Below, piece by piece: positions 2,552 to 35,213 of a stretch of DNA of 39,292 nucleotides (within the stretch, counting starts at the first letter, position 1; each line of letters begins with the position of its first letter). The notes under the pieces were generated by a model. The model did not search any database, had not been told where the DNA came from, and saw nothing but the letters and a program-made list of their open reading frames with translations. Position numbers and translations under genes: made by a program. Source of the DNA: a bacterium. Lineage in GTDB: Bacteria > Thermosulfidibacterota > Thermosulfidibacteria > Thermosulfidibacterales > JALWSI01. The stretch lies in NCBI GenBank assembly GCA_027080315.1, contig JALWSI010000222.1:1-39292 (forward strand), in the 5' to 3' direction.

Positions 2552-4792
2552 TTAGAATTTGGGCTTTTTGCCGTTCACAACCCGTTCTACGGCCTGTGCC
2601 AGCTCTTGCAGGGAGAAGGGCTTGGGCAAGGCACCCACAAAACCGTACTCTTTGAAGTTTGTCACAGCCTTATCCGAGCTTGCAACGCTGGTGATGATAA
2701 CCTTGGCCTTTGGGTCAACCTCAAGGATGGACCTGCAGGTCTCCTTACCATCCATGCTCTCTTCAGGCATCAACAGGTCAAGAATAACAACATCAAAAGG
2801 AGCACCTGCATCCTTAGCCTCTTTGAACTTTTCAACCGCCTCTTTTCCGTTGTCCACCGCCACCACACAGTAACCGAGGTTACTTAGCAGGGTGCAGAAG
2901 AGTTCCTTCTGGTAAGGGTCATCCTCCATCACCAGAACCTTGCCATTTCCTCTCAAACAGGCTTCAGAGGCGCTATCGGCCGCCGGCAACAACACTGTGA
3001 AGGTGCTTCCCTCTCCTAAGACAGACTCTACCTCAATATCTCCACCGTGCCTTTTCACCACAGAGTAGGCAATAGAGAGGCCCAACCCCCTACCCATCTC
3101 CTTTGTGGTGAAGAAGGGATCAAATATGCGTTTCTGCTGCTCTACGGGAATTCCAGGGCCAGCATCAGAAATCCTAACAGCCACATACCTACCATCTGGC
3201 AAAGAGAGATCGGGATCCCCTGCCGGAGGCACTGTGATATTTTCGGCCCTCACATAAACTATTCCGCCCTCAGGCATAGCTTCTTTGGCATTGGTGATTA
3301 TCTCGCTAAAGGCATTAAGGAGCTGATGGTAGTCTCCTTTCACATCCCAGAGATCGGGAGAGATGTCCAGAGAGATCCTCACCTTTCCACTCTCATTCCT
3401 TTTCAGAACATCTTGCACAGACTCACCCAAAAGCTCCTTCAATGAGACCACCTTGCTCACAGGAACGCCACCAGGGGAGAAGGTGATGAGCTTTCTGGTA
3501 AGGGTTGCCGCCCTCAACACGGCCCTCTCTGCCTTCTCAAGCATCTCATCGGCTTTTGTAGAAACCCCAAATTCTCTGGCCATGGTGATATTACCCACCA
3601 CTATGGCCAGTATGTTATTGAAATCGTGGGCTATGCCACCTGCCAGCTCTCCTACGGCCTGCAGTTTTCTAAACTGCAGCACCTGCTCCTGTAGCATGGT
3701 CTCCTTTGTCACATCCCTGCAGGCCACCAGCATCATCCAACCTTTCTTTTCCTCTTTGGGAATCTTGCTGGCCACTGCATCCACCCAAATCTCTACTCCG
3801 TCAGACCGTTTGAAGAGCCACTTAAAAGAGACCCTCTCTTTCACCAGAACATCAGAGGCCCAAGAATTGAACTTCTTGAAGGAAGGCACCCCGTCGGGCT
3901 GCTGTTCAGGAGAAATCTCAGCAGGATGTACCAAAACCTGGGACATCTCTTGACAGCCAAGCATCTCCAGCATAGCCCTGTTGCAATCGCTTATTCTCTC
4001 TCCGTCAAATATGAACATTGGCTCAGGGGAGTTCTCAAACATGGCTCTGAAACGGTATTCTGACATGCTGAGCTTCTTGGTCTCAGCAGAGACCCTTGTG
4101 GTACCCACAAAGATCAATAGAAGTCCAGCAATCCATAAAAATAGATCAACCATTACTGAACGGGCAATCTCTCGTCTTTCAAGAAGAAGATACGGCTTTA
4201 AGGGGACAAAAACGCTTATCCCTCCCCTTATGTCCCCAAGTTTGTATCCCTGTTTTGCATGGCACTTAAGACACGCCTTCTCGGTAACCAAAGGGAGCAT
4301 TAGACGTATGGCAGGACCGCCTCTGAAGGTGACCTTCTCCCAATACTCCTTCTCACCCTTCTCAAAAAGGGTAAGAGCCCTTCTCTCCCACTCATCTGGA
4401 GCGTTCTTGGGGTTTATGGGTTTCAAACTGGTTATATGGCCCTGGGTCCCCAGTCTCTTCTTCTGAAGCTCAAACACCTGTCTGGTCATGTAAGCGGGGT
4501 TTATCTTGGTGAGGAGCCTACCCGAAGGGGTCTTTATATCCCTCTCTGGCACCTTAAGGTAAGGATTAGGGGGAGTGGTAGGCGACACAGGGGCATAAAC
4601 CCCGCCGTGCATGGCGTTCCACGCCCTGAAGAGTATGGTCTCTTCAATAAAGGACCTTGCCGCCTCCCTCGCTGAGTTCAGGGCAAATCTATGGATGTGC
4701 TGTATGGTGTAGAGACAGGAGGCCCCTATCCCTAAGGTCCAAATAACCGCAAGAAAAATCCCCCACTTAACGATCTGTTTTCCAGACCTCAT
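2552..4792 (-). CDS. Membrane hybrid histidine kinase with heme-c-type Tll0287-like (DUF3365) sensor, PAS and receiver domains
   Basis: The 746-residue product has a transmembrane helix (about 8-30), a periplasmic sensor domain (about 31-205), a second helix (about 212-231), a PAS domain (about 243-365), a HisKA dimerisation domain and a HATPase. H389 in GGIAHDFNNIL is the phospho-accepting histidine. N501 is the N-box residue, and DAGPGIP and GRGLGLSI are the G boxes. The C-terminal receiver spans about 617-742, with acidic pocket near 623-625, phospho-acceptor D672 and K723. The sensor domain contains CLKCH at 174-178, a CxxCH motif for covalent heme c, as in many DUF3365/Tll0287 domains, so redox or gas sensing is likely (inference). 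No output regulator gene is adjacent. The start ATG at 4792 follows a purine-rich GGGGGAAGG. Confidence 0.9.
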   Translation of the reverse strand: MRSGKQIVKWGIFLAVIWTLGIGASCLYTIQHIHRFALNSAREAARSFIEETILFRAWNAMHGGVYAPVSPTTPPNPYLKVPERDIKTPSGRLLTKINPAYMTRQVFELQKKRLGTQGHITSLKPINPKNAPDEWERRALTLFEKGEKEYWEKVTFRGGPAIRLMLPLVTEKACLKCHAKQGYKLGDIRGGISVFVPLKPYLLLERREIARSVMVDLFLWIAGLLLIFVGTTRVSAETKKLSMSEYRFRAMFENSPEPMFIFDGERISDCNRAMLEMLGCQEMSQVLVHPAEISPEQQPDGVPSFKKFNSWASDVLVKERVSFKWLFKRSDGVEIWVDAVASKIPKEEKKGWMMLVACRDVTKETMLQEQVLQFRKLQAVGELAGGIAHDFNNILAIVVGNITMAREFGVSTKADEMLEKAERAVLRAATLTRKLITFSPGGVPVSKVVSLKELLGESVQDVLKRNESGKVRISLDISPDLWDVKGDYHQLLNAFSEIITNAKEAMPEGGIVYVRAENITVPPAGDPDLSLPDGRYVAVRISDAGPGIPVEQQKRIFDPFFTTKEMGRGLGLSIAYSVVKRHGGDIEVESVLGEGSTFTVLLPAADSASEACLRGNGKVLVMEDDPYQKELFCTLLSNLGYCVVAVDNGKEAVEKFKEAKDAGAPFDVVILDLLMPEESMDGKETCRSILEVDPKAKVIITSVASSDKAVTNFKEYGFVGALPKPFSLQELAQAVERVVNGKKPKF

Positions 4793-15604: not shown

Positions 15605-16228
15605 TTATCGGCTCAGGGTATCAGACCGCCAAGAGGAGAGCACCTCTTTGAGAAGAAGGTAGAGCCTGCGCACAGGGAGTCCCACCACATTGGTGTAAGA
15701 GCCTCTAACCTCCTCCACCAGACAGGCTCCATGCCCTTGAATACCATAGGCCCCTGCCTTGTCCATGGGCTCTCCCGTTGACACATAACGTTCAATCTCC
15801 TCTTCTGTGAGAACCCCGAATCTAACAAAACTCTCTTGAAAGAAGTCCTCTTCTCCCCCTGGATAGGCCACGCACACCCCTGTGATCACCCTGTGCTCTC
15901 GTCCAGAGAGCATCTGCAGCATCTCCACTGCCTCTTGGGGAGTTTCGGGCTTTCCCATAATTCTCTCATCCAACACCACTACTGTGTCCGCACCTATCAC
16001 CAAAGAGTTTGGATAAAGATCAAACACCTCCCTGCACTTCTGAGAGGCGGCCGTAAGAGCGTAATCCTCAGGAGACTGGCCACTATCAGGGCAGGGTTCT
16101 TTTGCAGGAATCACCACCTCAAATCGGGGTAGAATGAGACTTAAAAGCTCTCGCCTACGGGGGGATGCCGATGCCAGGATGAAGCTCACTCCCCCTGGCA
16201 CCGGCAAAAGCGTTTCAGGCAGGCTCAA
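15605..16228 (-). CDS. maf: Maf family nucleoside triphosphate pyrophosphatase
   Basis: Maf proteins hydrolyse non-canonical or pyrimidine NTPs (dTTP/UTP in the YhdE branch) to NMP and PPi; in several bacteria they link to septum control. The 207-residue product has FILASASPRRRELL, VIGADTVVVLDERIMGKP, REHRVITGVCV and the C-terminal YVSTGEPMDKAGAYGIQGHG with the catalytic Asp and Lys. The start is TTG at 16228 preceded by AAGGA; no ATG is available near the conserved N-terminus. It lies 21 nt downstream of the Cys-rich gene and 9 nt upstream of the Fe-S protein, so it is likely transcribed with both. Confidence 0.95.
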   Translation of the reverse strand: MSLPETLLPVPGGVSFILASASPRRRELLSLILPRFEVVIPAKEPCPDSGQSPEDYALTAASQKCREVFDLYPNSLVIGADTVVVLDERIMGKPETPQEAVEMLQMLSGREHRVITGVCVAYPGGEEDFFQESFVRFGVLTEEEIERYVSTGEPMDKAGAYGIQGHGACLVEEVRGSYTNVVGLPVRRLYLLLKEVLSSWRSDTLSR

Positions 16229-16249: not shown

Positions 16250-16588
16250 TTACTTACACTCACACGCAGGCACCCACTCCCAATGCACCTTACACTTTCC
16301 AGGCACAAAACGGGACTCGTAGTGCCCACAACCGCAGCAACACGGATCTGCCACCCAGACACACTCCCAGTGTCCCGGATCGCAGGTGGTAACTGCCTTC
16401 CAGTATCCCCTTACACAACAATCACAACAGTTGCAGCAATTGCAGGTGGTACAACAGGTGGTGCAGGTTGCGACTGCGCAGGTTCCACAGCAGTCACAGC
16501 ACTGCGCCTGTGACGTAGAAACACCCAAGCCAATCACCAAGGCCAGCGCCAAAAGCAGAGACGCCAGAATAGTCGCTCTTCTCCTCAT
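16250..16588 (-). CDS. Secreted ultra-cysteine-rich protein, unrecognised family
   Basis: I do not recognise a family. The 112-residue product has a signal peptide (basic MRRR, hydrophobic 7-22, probable cleavage after TSQA at residue 28), so it is exported. The mature part of about 84 residues holds 24 cysteines. Residues 30-58 alone carry 15, arranged as CCxCC, CC and C pairs with Thr, Asn and Asp. The C-terminal half has aromatic, strand-like repeats (GYWKAV, GHWECVWV, GHYESRFVPG, VHWEWVPA) broken by CCCGC and CEC. This resembles GHWE/VWVPG repeat modules of exported proteins. Lipobox is absent. A candidate promoter and a near-perfect ribosome binding site (AAGGAGGT, 8 nt before ATG) suggest strong expression. 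Metal binding, disulfide-rich structure or surface redox roles are all possible. Confidence 0.8.
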   Translation of the reverse strand: MRRRATILASLLLALALVIGLGVSTSQAQCCDCCGTCAVATCTTCCTTCNCCNCCDCCVRGYWKAVTTCDPGHWECVWVADPCCCGCGHYESRFVPGKCKVHWEWVPACECK

Positions 16589-16644
16589 GCGATACCACCT
16601 CCTTCACCCATCTAATCTTCACCTTTTACCTGCCCTTGCCCCTG

Positions 16645-16676: not shown

Positions 16677-17774
16677 CTATTTCCTCAACGGGCCTTTCTC
16701 TCGCCAGATGTTTGAGAGAATGCCAGCAGCGGCATAAGTGACCACCAGCGAGGATCCTCCGTAGCTCATTAAAGGCAAAGGAACCCCAACCACAGGCAAC
16801 AACCCCATGGTCATTCCAACGTTGATGAAGAAGTGGAGAAGGAACATGGTGGCAAGACCTGCCCCCACAAGGCAGCTGAAGCTATCCCTGGCATATCTTG
16901 ATACGGCGTATGATTGCCATATAAAGACAGCATAGAGAAGCAAGAGAAGAACACTGCCCACAAAGCCCCACTCTTCTGCAAATACCGCAAACACAAAATC
17001 GGTGCACTTCTCTGGAAGAAAGTTGAGTCTGCTCTGGGATCCGTGACCGTAGCCCTTCCCCAGAAGGCGTCCTGAGCCTATGGCTATCTTTGACTGAATC
17101 AGGTGATAACCCTTGTTAAGAGGATCTCTCTCGGGATTGAGCACCGCTCTTATCCTGTCCTTCTGATACTCCTTGAGCACCACATCGGAGTTCCAGATCA
17201 CTGGAATACAGAGGGCAAAGACCACCATGATACTCAAAGCGGTCTTGGGACGAACAGAACGGTGAAGCACCATAGTACCAGAGATACCCATCATCACCAG
17301 AGCCGTGCCAAGATCGGGCTGGCTTGCTGTGAGCAGAAAGAGAGGAGCCAGCACCCCAAGGGGTTTAAACAGGGTCACGAAGTTGTAAGGTTGTCTCTCC
17401 TTCTCAATCACCCAGGCAGTGGCAAGCACCAGAGAGATCTTTGCAAACTCAGAGGGCTGAATCTGGAAAATCCCCAAGTTTATACGACGCTGGGCCCCCA
17501 TGGTGGTAACACCTGCAACATCCACTGCCACCAAGAGAAGAACCGACAAGAGGTAAAGAGGACCTGTAAGGCGTCTCCAGGCATCAGAGGGAAGAATCAG
17601 CATGGTGAAATAGGCAGCCAAACCCAACATGTGCCAGAAAACCTGCTTCATAACCAGAGAAGGTGGAGAGACGCTGGATAGGGTAACCAGTCCCACCACT
17701 CCTAAAAGCACCATTGGAATAAAGAGCCTGAAGGGAGGCACCAACCTGCGGAGTAAGGAATCCTGGCTACTCAT
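16677..17774 (-). CDS. rodA: Rod-shape-determining peptidoglycan glycosyltransferase RodA
   Basis: RodA is the SEDS-family polymerase of lateral-wall peptidoglycan and acts with class B PBP2. The 365-residue product has about ten hydrophobic segments and SEDS motifs: GAQRRINLGIFQIQPSEFAKI, ASQPDLGTALV (putative catalytic Asp region), KEYQKDRIRAVLNPERDPLNKGYHLIQSKIAIGSG, the GKGYGHGSQSRLNFLPEKCTDFVFAVFAEEWG block (read in pieces) and PVVGVPLPLMSYGGSS. The start is ATG at 17774, overlapping the mrdA stop by 8 nt; the longer in-frame extension inside mrdA is not credible. Co-location with mrdA confirms the elongasome pair. MreBCD genes are not in the window. Confidence 0.96.
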   Translation of the reverse strand: MSSQDSLLRRLVPPFRLFIPMVLLGVVGLVTLSSVSPPSLVMKQVFWHMLGLAAYFTMLILPSDAWRRLTGPLYLLSVLLLVAVDVAGVTTMGAQRRINLGIFQIQPSEFAKISLVLATAWVIEKERQPYNFVTLFKPLGVLAPLFLLTASQPDLGTALVMMGISGTMVLHRSVRPKTALSIMVVFALCIPVIWNSDVVLKEYQKDRIRAVLNPERDPLNKGYHLIQSKIAIGSGRLLGKGYGHGSQSRLNFLPEKCTDFVFAVFAEEWGFVGSVLLLLLYAVFIWQSYAVSRYARDSFSCLVGAGLATMFLLHFFINVGMTMGLLPVVGVPLPLMSYGGSSLVVTYAAAGILSNIWREKGPLRK

Positions 17775-19563
17775 CTTGCTGGGGATCCTCTCCTTTAAGG
17801 TAGTAAGAGATAAGCCTGCCCACCAAGGGGGCGGCGCCTGAGCCACCGTGGCCACCGTGCTCAACAATGGCAGCTACTGCTATCCTGGGATCTTCAACAG
17901 GGGCAAAGGCGGCAAACCAAGCGTGATCCCTCATTTTGTAGGGGATCTCCTCTATCTTTGTGTGGGGAACCTTCTGGTGCACCACCTGGACCGTTCCCGT
18001 TTTGCCTGCCACATGGATACCCTCCACCTTAGCAAGATGGGCTGTGCCATGCTCCTCCTCCACAACCCCTTGCAACGCCTTTATTATCACCCTTAGAAAA
18101 CGCCTCTTCAAAGGAAGCTGCTTCTCAGGAAAGCTCTTGCGAGGAGAGAACAAGAGATGCGGGGTTACGGCCTTTCCCATCTCTCCCACCGTGGCCATGA
18201 GATGAGCGATCTGAAGAGGAGTAACAAGAAGATAGCCCTGCCCTATTCCCATGATGAGGTCCTCCCCGGGAAACCACACCATGCCCAGCCTCTTCTTCTT
18301 CCATTCACGGGAGGGCACCACACCCCTGTACTCGTGGGGCAGATCTATGCCCGTGCGAGCACCAAGGCCAAGAAGACGGGCATACTTGCCCATCTTGTCA
18401 ACAGTGAGCATCTCCCCCAGCTTGTAGAAGTAGATATCACAAGACTCAACAATGGCCCTGTGAAGGCGCACAATCCCGTGGCCACTACGCTTCCAGCATC
18501 GGTAACGACGGTTCTTGAAAATATAGACCCCCTTGCACACCTCAGGGGTTCTGGGAGTGATCACCCCTTCTTGAAGCCCCGCCAGCCCCACCACCACCTT
18601 GAAGATGGAACCTGGGGAGTAGAGGCCCTGGATGGCCCTGTTCTGTAAAGGATGGTTGGGATTGCGGATAAGCCTTCTCCACTCCCTGGGGTTTAGAGAC
18701 CTGGTGAAGAGGTTCGGGTCGTAGGCTGGGCTACTGGCCATTGCCAGAATCTCGCCGTTTCTGGGATCCATGGCCACAATAGCCCCCACCTTGCCTTTTA
18801 AGAGCTTTTCCGCCTCTCTCTGGAGTCTCACGTCTATTGTGAGACGGATATCCTTTCCGGGAATGGGCTTGGATCGGTTAACCATGCGAACCTTCTTGAG
18901 CCTTGCGTCAACCTCCCACTGCTCCCATCCCCCTATTCCCCTGAGAAGATCGTCGTACTGGCGTTCAATGCCAGTCTTACCAATCATGTCACCGCCCCAG
19001 AACCGCCCCTGTTGAAGCTCCTTTGAAGAGACCTCTCCCATGTATCCAATAACATGGGATGCCAAGGTGCCATTGGGATAGAACCTTCTCTCTTCAGGGG
19101 AGAGGATGATTCCCGGAAGCATCCACTCCCTCTCCGCCACCCGGGCAACCTCTCTCTCTGAGAGGTCTCTCTTAATCAGGCAAGCCACTGTAGGGTTTTT
19201 TCTGGCGTCCTCTATCCTCTCCTCAAGCTGCTCCCGAGAGATCCTTAAGAGCCTTTTCAACTCCTTCTTCAGATCATTCCACCCCTTCTTGGGAACATCG
19301 TCTGCCAGAAGATAGAGGTTGAAAGAGGGTTTGTTTATGGCCAAGGGAATCCCGTTTCTGTCCAATATCCGTCCCCTAACTGGACGCACCCTGTAAACCC
19401 TCACCCTGTTCTTCACTGAGAGCTTCAAGTATTTTTCGCCATTCACAATCTGAAGCCTCAGTAAGGCAAAGAGCAGAACGGTAAGAAGCACAACCAAAGC
19501 AAAGTAGAAGTAGGCTATTCTCCCTCTCAGCTCTTCCAGGAGGCGAAGGTCCCAAGAGGACAT
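17767..19563 (-). CDS. mrdA: Penicillin-binding protein 2 (MrdA), elongasome transpeptidase
   Basis: This class B PBP cross-links peptidoglycan with RodA. The 598-residue product has a short cytosolic N-terminus, one transmembrane helix (about 15-37), and the pedestal domain with RPVRGRILDRNGIPLA. In the transpeptidase domain the SxxK motif is SIFK with nucleophile S319 (YSPGSIFKV). The second motif is SCD in VESCDIYFYKLG, as is normal for PBP2, and the third is KTGT in HVAGKTGTVQV. Length is slightly short of E. coli PBP2 (633). It begins 1 nt after the mutS2 stop, with AAGGA in the mutS2 end serving as ribosome binding site. Confidence 0.97.
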   Translation of the reverse strand: MSSWDLRLLEELRGRIAYFYFALVVLLTVLLFALLRLQIVNGEKYLKLSVKNRVRVYRVRPVRGRILDRNGIPLAINKPSFNLYLLADDVPKKGWNDLKKELKRLLRISREQLEERIEDARKNPTVACLIKRDLSEREVARVAEREWMLPGIILSPEERRFYPNGTLASHVIGYMGEVSSKELQQGRFWGGDMIGKTGIERQYDDLLRGIGGWEQWEVDARLKKVRMVNRSKPIPGKDIRLTIDVRLQREAEKLLKGKVGAIVAMDPRNGEILAMASSPAYDPNLFTRSLNPREWRRLIRNPNHPLQNRAIQGLYSPGSIFKVVVGLAGLQEGVITPRTPEVCKGVYIFKNRRYRCWKRSGHGIVRLHRAIVESCDIYFYKLGEMLTVDKMGKYARLLGLGARTGIDLPHEYRGVVPSREWKKKRLGMVWFPGEDLIMGIGQGYLLVTPLQIAHLMATVGEMGKAVTPHLLFSPRKSFPEKQLPLKRRFLRVIIKALQGVVEEEHGTAHLAKVEGIHVAGKTGTVQVVHQKVPHTKIEEIPYKMRDHAWFAAFAPVEDPRIAVAAIVEHGGHGGSGAAPLVGRLISYYLKGEDPQQDE

Positions 19564-33502: not shown

Positions 33503-33589
33503 GCCGAAGTGGCGGAACTGGTAGACGCGCTATCTTGAGGGGGTAGTGGGCGTTTGCCCGTGCGGGTTCGAGTCCCGCCTTCGGCACCA
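33503..33589 (+). tRNA. tRNA-Leu (GAG)
   Basis: This is an 87-nt type II tRNA. The acceptor stem is GCCGAAG/CTTCGGC with encoded CCA. The D arm contains GGCGGAACTGGTAGACGC, and the anticodon stem CTATC/GGTAG has loop TTGAGGG (anticodon GAG at 33537-33539). A long variable arm (TGGGCGTTTGCCCG) and T arm GCGGGTTCGAGTCCCGC follow. It lies 5 nt upstream of tRNA-Pro(GGG), so the two are co-transcribed. Confidence 0.97.
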
Positions 33590-33594
33590 TCACT

Positions 33595-33671
33595 CGGGGC
33601 GTGGCGCAGTCTGGTAGCGCACTGGCATGGGGGGTCAGTGGTCGGCCGTTCGAATCGGCTCGCCCCGACCA
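33595..33671 (+). tRNA. tRNA-Pro (GGG)
   Basis: The 77-nt cloverleaf has acceptor CGGGGCG/CGCCCCG with encoded ACCA. The D arm contains GCGCAGTCTGGTAGCGC, and the anticodon stem CTGGC/GTCAG has loop ATGGGGG (anticodon GGG at 33629-33631). The T loop is TTCGAAT. It ends 32 nt before the surE ATG. Its 3' part is identical over 33 nt to the second tRNA-Pro downstream. Confidence 0.97.
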
Positions 33672-35136: not shown

Positions 35137-35213
35137 CGGGGCGTAGCGCAGCCTGGTAGCGCACCAGCTTCGGGAGTTGGGTGTCGGCCGTTCGAATCGG
35201 CTCGCCCCGACCA
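35137..35213 (+). tRNA. tRNA-Pro (CGG)
   Basis: The 77-nt cloverleaf has acceptor CGGGGCG/CGCCCCG with encoded ACCA. The D arm contains GCGCAGCCTGGTAGCGC, and the anticodon stem CCAGC/GTTGG has loop TTCGGGA (anticodon CGG at 35171-35173). The T loop is TTCGAAT. It lies 27 nt after the pcm stop and 28 nt before the next gene, inside an otherwise protein-coding unit. It differs from the upstream Pro tRNA mainly in the anticodon arm. Confidence 0.97.

Follow-up and report, generated by a model that had tools for sequence, protein, structure and literature searches.

A putative exported, cysteine-dense orphan protein encoded between rodA and maf in a Thermosulfidibacterota bacterium

Introduction

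Small exported proteins rich in cysteine are already a known kind. In chlamydiae, OmcA and OmcB are exported Cys-rich envelope proteins that are cross-linked by disulfides, and in animals the keratin-associated high-sulfur proteins carry CC and TTC/TTCC patterns. The characterized bacterial metallothioneins have no classical signal peptide and few aromatic residues. Among them, PmtA is made without a classical signal peptide (PMC11237414). The copper storage protein Csp1 is a Tat-exported four-helix bundle that binds approximately 13 Cu(I) ions (PMC7558416). VKOR-DsbA fusions make disulfides in exported proteins, and E. coli dsb mutants regain the ability to form disulfides when supplied with VKOR or VKOR-DsbA proteins (PMC12453122).

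Here we describe a gene from a 39,292-nucleotide stretch of DNA (the window) of a bacterium of the Thermosulfidibacterales, whose predicted product resembles each of these systems in part. Like the bacterial metallothioneins SmtA and PmtA it is small and very Cys-rich with tight Cys spacing, but it carries a Sec-type signal and an aromatic half and has no Pfam (E up to 10) or NCBIfam match. With Csp1-type copper storage proteins it shares small size, export and Cys content, whereas its signal is Sec-type and its chain has CC pairs and is predicted to contain strands, and the four-helix Cys-rich family was unmatched in Pfam and in PDB sequences. It is exported and Cys-rich like OmcA and OmcB, without sequence match, and the Cys density of those proteins is much lower. 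As in cross-linked envelope proteins, an export signal (read by eye) and a disulfide-forming enzyme, VKOR, are both present. The N-terminal block recalls keratin-associated high-sulfur proteins in its CC and TTC/TTCC patterns, with no Pfam match, and by eye the second half contains motifs like the GHWE/VWV of WXXGXW / VWVPG repeat proteins, for which Pfam again gave nothing at E up to 10. In our view the product is probably an envelope protein specific to this lineage that is rich in disulfides or binds metal.

Results

A two-part protein with 24 cysteines

The gene, its parts and its flanking features are as follows.

16250..16588, minus strand: open reading frame of 112 codons with 24 Cys (ORF list and translation, codon use, Cys count)
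16505..16588, minus strand: signal peptide, residues 1-28, MRRRATILASLLLALALVIGLGVSTSQA, Sec-type, without lipobox (translation, by eye)
16415..16504, minus strand: Cys-Thr block, residues 29-58, with 15 Cys, six CC pairs and three CCxCC units
16253..16414, minus strand: aromatic half, residues 59-112, with GYWK/GHWE/GHYE/VHWE motifs, nine Cys and four strands (low-confidence models)
16596..16604, minus strand: Shine-Dalgarno sequence AAGGAGGTG, a 9-base match, 7 bases before the ATG
16677..17867, minus strand: rodA, the upstream gene (Pfam FTSW_RODA_SPOVE); its stop lies 88 bases upstream of the Cys-rich gene's ATG
15605..16228, minus strand: maf, the downstream gene (Pfam Maf, spacing)

The translated product is MRRRATILASLLLALALVIGLGVSTSQAQCCDCCGTCAVATCTTCCTTCNCCNCCDCCVRGYWKAVTTCDPGHWECVWVADPCCCGCGHYESRFVPGKCKVHWEWVPACECK. 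Cleavage is predicted after SQA (residue 28), leaving a mature chain of 84 residues and about 9 kDa. The signal peptide contains no Cys, so that all 24 lie in the mature part, where they make up 29% of the residues (50% in the N block). Given a Cys frequency of 1.3% across the window, this count has P ~3e-22. The Cys of the N block are residues 30, 31, 33, 34, 37, 42, 45, 46, 49, 51, 52, 54, 55, 57 and 58, and those of the aromatic half are residues 69, 76, 83, 84, 85, 87, 99, 109 and 111. Besides Cys, the N block contains Thr, Asp and Asn, with no CCC. The six CC pairs are what the Cys composition predicts (P 0.21); the three CCxCC units are less expected (P 0.025), and the absence of CCC together with the CCxCC count is mildly unusual (P ~0.03). 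The C half contains five Trp and four [GV][HY][WY][EK] motifs, at residues 61, 72, 88 and 101, compared to a maximum of two in 200,000 shuffles, for a motif that was defined post hoc from the same sequence. No haem CxxCH motif occurs in the 112-residue translation, and no tandem repeat was found in the DNA of the gene.

These results agree with an earlier note on this DNA, which had placed the gene at 16250-16588 (on the minus strand, as the ORF list and translation establish) and had described an export signal, a two-part anatomy with four aromatic repeats and 24 Cys in about 84 mature residues, 15 of them within residues 30-58 and nine more in the second half. Our recount gave the same figures, and residues 1-28 read, by eye, as a Sec-type signal peptide. 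The RRRATIL stretch in the signal region lacks an SRRxFLK pattern (by eye). By eye, the signal looks Sec-like rather than Tat-like, so the chain is probably exported unfolded and unmetallated.

The frame has the features of a gene

The 9-base Shine-Dalgarno match, described beforehand as a near-perfect ribosome binding site, deserves that description: it is the longest among the 14 starts compared, and a match of this kind occurs at 0.06% of random positions. The frame has the highest codon score of the six frames. Its choice among synonymous codons scores 4.1 SD higher than uniform use would and 1.6 SD lower than genome-like use would, and its GC3 is 0.60 vs 0.62. A promoter had also been proposed just after rodA; a standard scan of the minus strand in this region gave no site of the sigma-70 type, and by eye TTGACC (16673-16668) is followed after 17 bases by TAAAGG, which matches at just 3/6 positions. 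The proposal of strong expression thus retains the Shine-Dalgarno sequence as its support and loses the promoter. A scan found no terminator-like site on the minus strand between the gene and rodA or maf, so cotranscription is possible.

We found no homolog with conserved Cys spacing, an outcome that had been named in advance as a sign of a spurious frame, and frames overlapping the gene are open too. Nevertheless, the Shine-Dalgarno sequence, the codon use with the top score among frames, and the signal peptide favor a real, lineage-specific gene, and we give a spurious frame only a very slight chance.

The gene lies between two genes that adjoin in relatives

Upstream of the Cys-rich gene are rodA and a penicillin-binding protein gene, mrdA (Pfam). 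Downstream follow maf, a CCG-domain iron-sulfur protein and alanine racemase (Pfam), and three glycosyltransferase-like frames (by eye). This is the peptidoglycan and surface-glycan neighborhood that the sequence had suggested at first reading. In 6 of 7 relatives maf stands directly behind rodA, and the Cys-rich gene is absent between them. In three genomes (G007, G005, G003) the Maf LASASPRR motif begins 20 bases past the rodA stop, and in three more (G006, G004, G002) the Maf match begins at most ~50 bases from the end of the rodA match. Here the same rodA-to-Maf distance is 499, with ~480 extra bases that carry the Cys-rich gene. It follows that either this lineage gained the gene or every other one lost it, in a comparison where the host family is represented by one genome. 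In the remaining relative (L006, G001), a cinA-like gene directly follows rodA, and maf is not at this place. The rodA match of one relative (L007, G005) spans one TGA, which may be a frameshift, an assembly error or a start-site extension.

No relatives in broad searches

Eight other genomes of the order yielded no relative at E up to 10, and no relative was confirmed in ~410 other genomes besides those of the order. A wide sample of 386 genomes gave four weak phmmer matches (E 1e-3 to 1e-2), approximately the number expected by chance. Searches of further phyla, one of which covered a single genome, gave one weak match with stops inside and otherwise none. Of the weak matches in other genomes, two that were inspected sit in or across long unrelated frames, and two others contain stop codons. 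No relative was confirmed in contigs of 84,980 species or in viral contigs, phages and plasmids. Pfam, NCBIfam, PHROGs and the PDB gave no convincing match (none among PDB sequences at E up to 1), and hmmscan against Pfam at E up to 10 gave no match for the whole protein or either half.

Nucleotide-pattern scans, which are independent of low-complexity filters, returned chance or shadow frames only: for CCxCCxxG[YH]W, CxPG[HY]WECxW, CxCCxCCxCC and G[HY]WECxWV among the matches listed for viral contigs, and for CxxG[HY]WExxWV in the 84,980-species contigs. No second CxCCxCC protein was found in the host genome, and elsewhere in the order the pattern occurs in short chance frames only. These nulls are to be read with the knowledge that exact 8-residue patterns overlook diverged relatives, that composition filters weaken Cys-rich matches and that entries from the species itself may be missing from the sets searched. 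As judged by these searches, the combination of a CC block with aromatic strands corresponds to no described searchable family and the protein is an orphan, in line with the earlier note, to which no family with both parts was known. A relationship between the C half and GHWE/VWVPG repeat proteins, also suggested there, was not supported by any search. Without a homolog there is no conserved Cys pattern to interpret.

AlphaFold2, run without relatives, predicted four strands at the motif sites, with low confidence both for the full protein (pLDDT 58.6) and for the C half alone (pLDDT 61.4). A Foldseek search with the model gave no match (best E 6), which a pLDDT of 59 would lead one to expect.

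A VKOR is encoded in the same genome

The genome contains a single VKOR match (E 9e-16, above the curated cut-off), in the minus-strand frame 1348-2496 of another contig (L078, G000:C211). The frame has a KICPLC motif and a thioredoxin-like extension with CPGC, which Pfam does not recognize at E 0.01. This makes oxidation of exported cysteines possible; with Sec-like export, disulfide formation becomes the default expectation, and the VKOR favors the disulfide reading among the functions that had been suggested. Of the 9 genomes in the order, 7 have a VKOR. They include relatives that lack the Cys-rich protein, so the VKOR is not there for that protein.

Discussion

Our preferred reading, held tentatively and at somewhat less than even chances, is that the product is a Sec-exported envelope protein cross-linked by disulfides. 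A lineage-specific gene between rodA and maf would give rise to a small Sec-exported protein, whose cysteines would be oxidized after export by the cell's VKOR/thioredoxin-like system. The CC-rich N block may form a dense disulfide network, partly between chains, as dense CC pairs favor ladders, whether intra- or interchain. The aromatic C half could fold into a short beta-meander, which would either bind to a partner at the surface or pack on itself, and the end product would be a cross-linked component of the envelope or a coat. We count the even Cys number (24), the four strand-like repeats and the location in the rodA/mrdA/maf run in favor of this reading, although the place within the wall-gene run may be accidental. 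No second coat component was found, which counts against a cross-linked coat.

The main rival, which is possible but distinctly less probable, is an exported metallothionein-like sink or store in which the N block wraps Cu, Zn, Cd, Hg or As in extracytoplasmic thiolate clusters. The Cys content of the mature protein and the N block, the tight Cys spacing and the size of ~9 kDa would all suit such a role; it is opposed by the five Trp of the C half, given that metallothioneins are aromatic-poor, by the lack of any match to the metallothionein or Csp families (E up to 10), and by the VKOR, which would oxidize reduced thiols. A surface metallothionein has been reported in Pseudomonas aeruginosa (PMC11237414), and exported copper stores are known from Csp1 (PMC7558416), but Csp1 is exported by Tat and the signal found here resembles a Sec signal. 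The surroundings of the Cys-rich gene showed no gene for metal resistance. Alternatively, the gene may be recently born, a translated and exported orphan that has so far acquired little or no selected function, its Cys derived from TGY-rich DNA. We rank this third and consider it rather improbable: the absence of relatives in all searches, the composition-expected frequency of CC pairs and the position between two genes that adjoin in relatives speak for it, while the near-perfect Shine-Dalgarno sequence, the genome-like codon use, the two distinct Cys-rich segments with four regular aromatic motifs and the DNA free of tandem repeats argue against it. An extracellular redox scaffold or thiol buffer, shuttling electrons via reversible disulfides, is very unlikely. 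The high Cys density of an exported protein and the presence in the window of a sensor kinase bearing a Tll0287-like domain are consistent with it, but no partner oxidoreductase adjoins the gene and the protein has no haem CxxCH motif. We rejected a RiPP precursor on account of the Sec-type leader and because none of the adjoining genes was seen to encode a modifying enzyme.

A bolder proposal is a new type of exported protein from a little-known lineage, in which a CC-ladder domain is followed by an aromatic beta-meander and which forms either a layer held together by disulfides or a metal-thiolate material outside the cell; we regard this as unlikely. If made, the product would be an exported protein of unusual Cys density, and would test whether a VKOR-based system can oxidize so many neighboring cysteines or, alternatively, whether thiols are kept reduced outside the membrane for metals. 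The gene is an example of an exported orphan within a conserved wall-gene run.

Elsewhere in the window, the minus strand at 2552-4792 encodes a hybrid histidine kinase that begins with a Tll0287-like N-terminal domain and has a CLKCHAKQ motif; it is a likely haem-binding periplasmic sensor. Genes for tRNA-Leu(gag), tRNA-Pro(ggg) and tRNA-Pro(cgg) lie on the plus strand at 33503-33671 and 35137-35213, and the ORFs listed over them are shadow ORFs.
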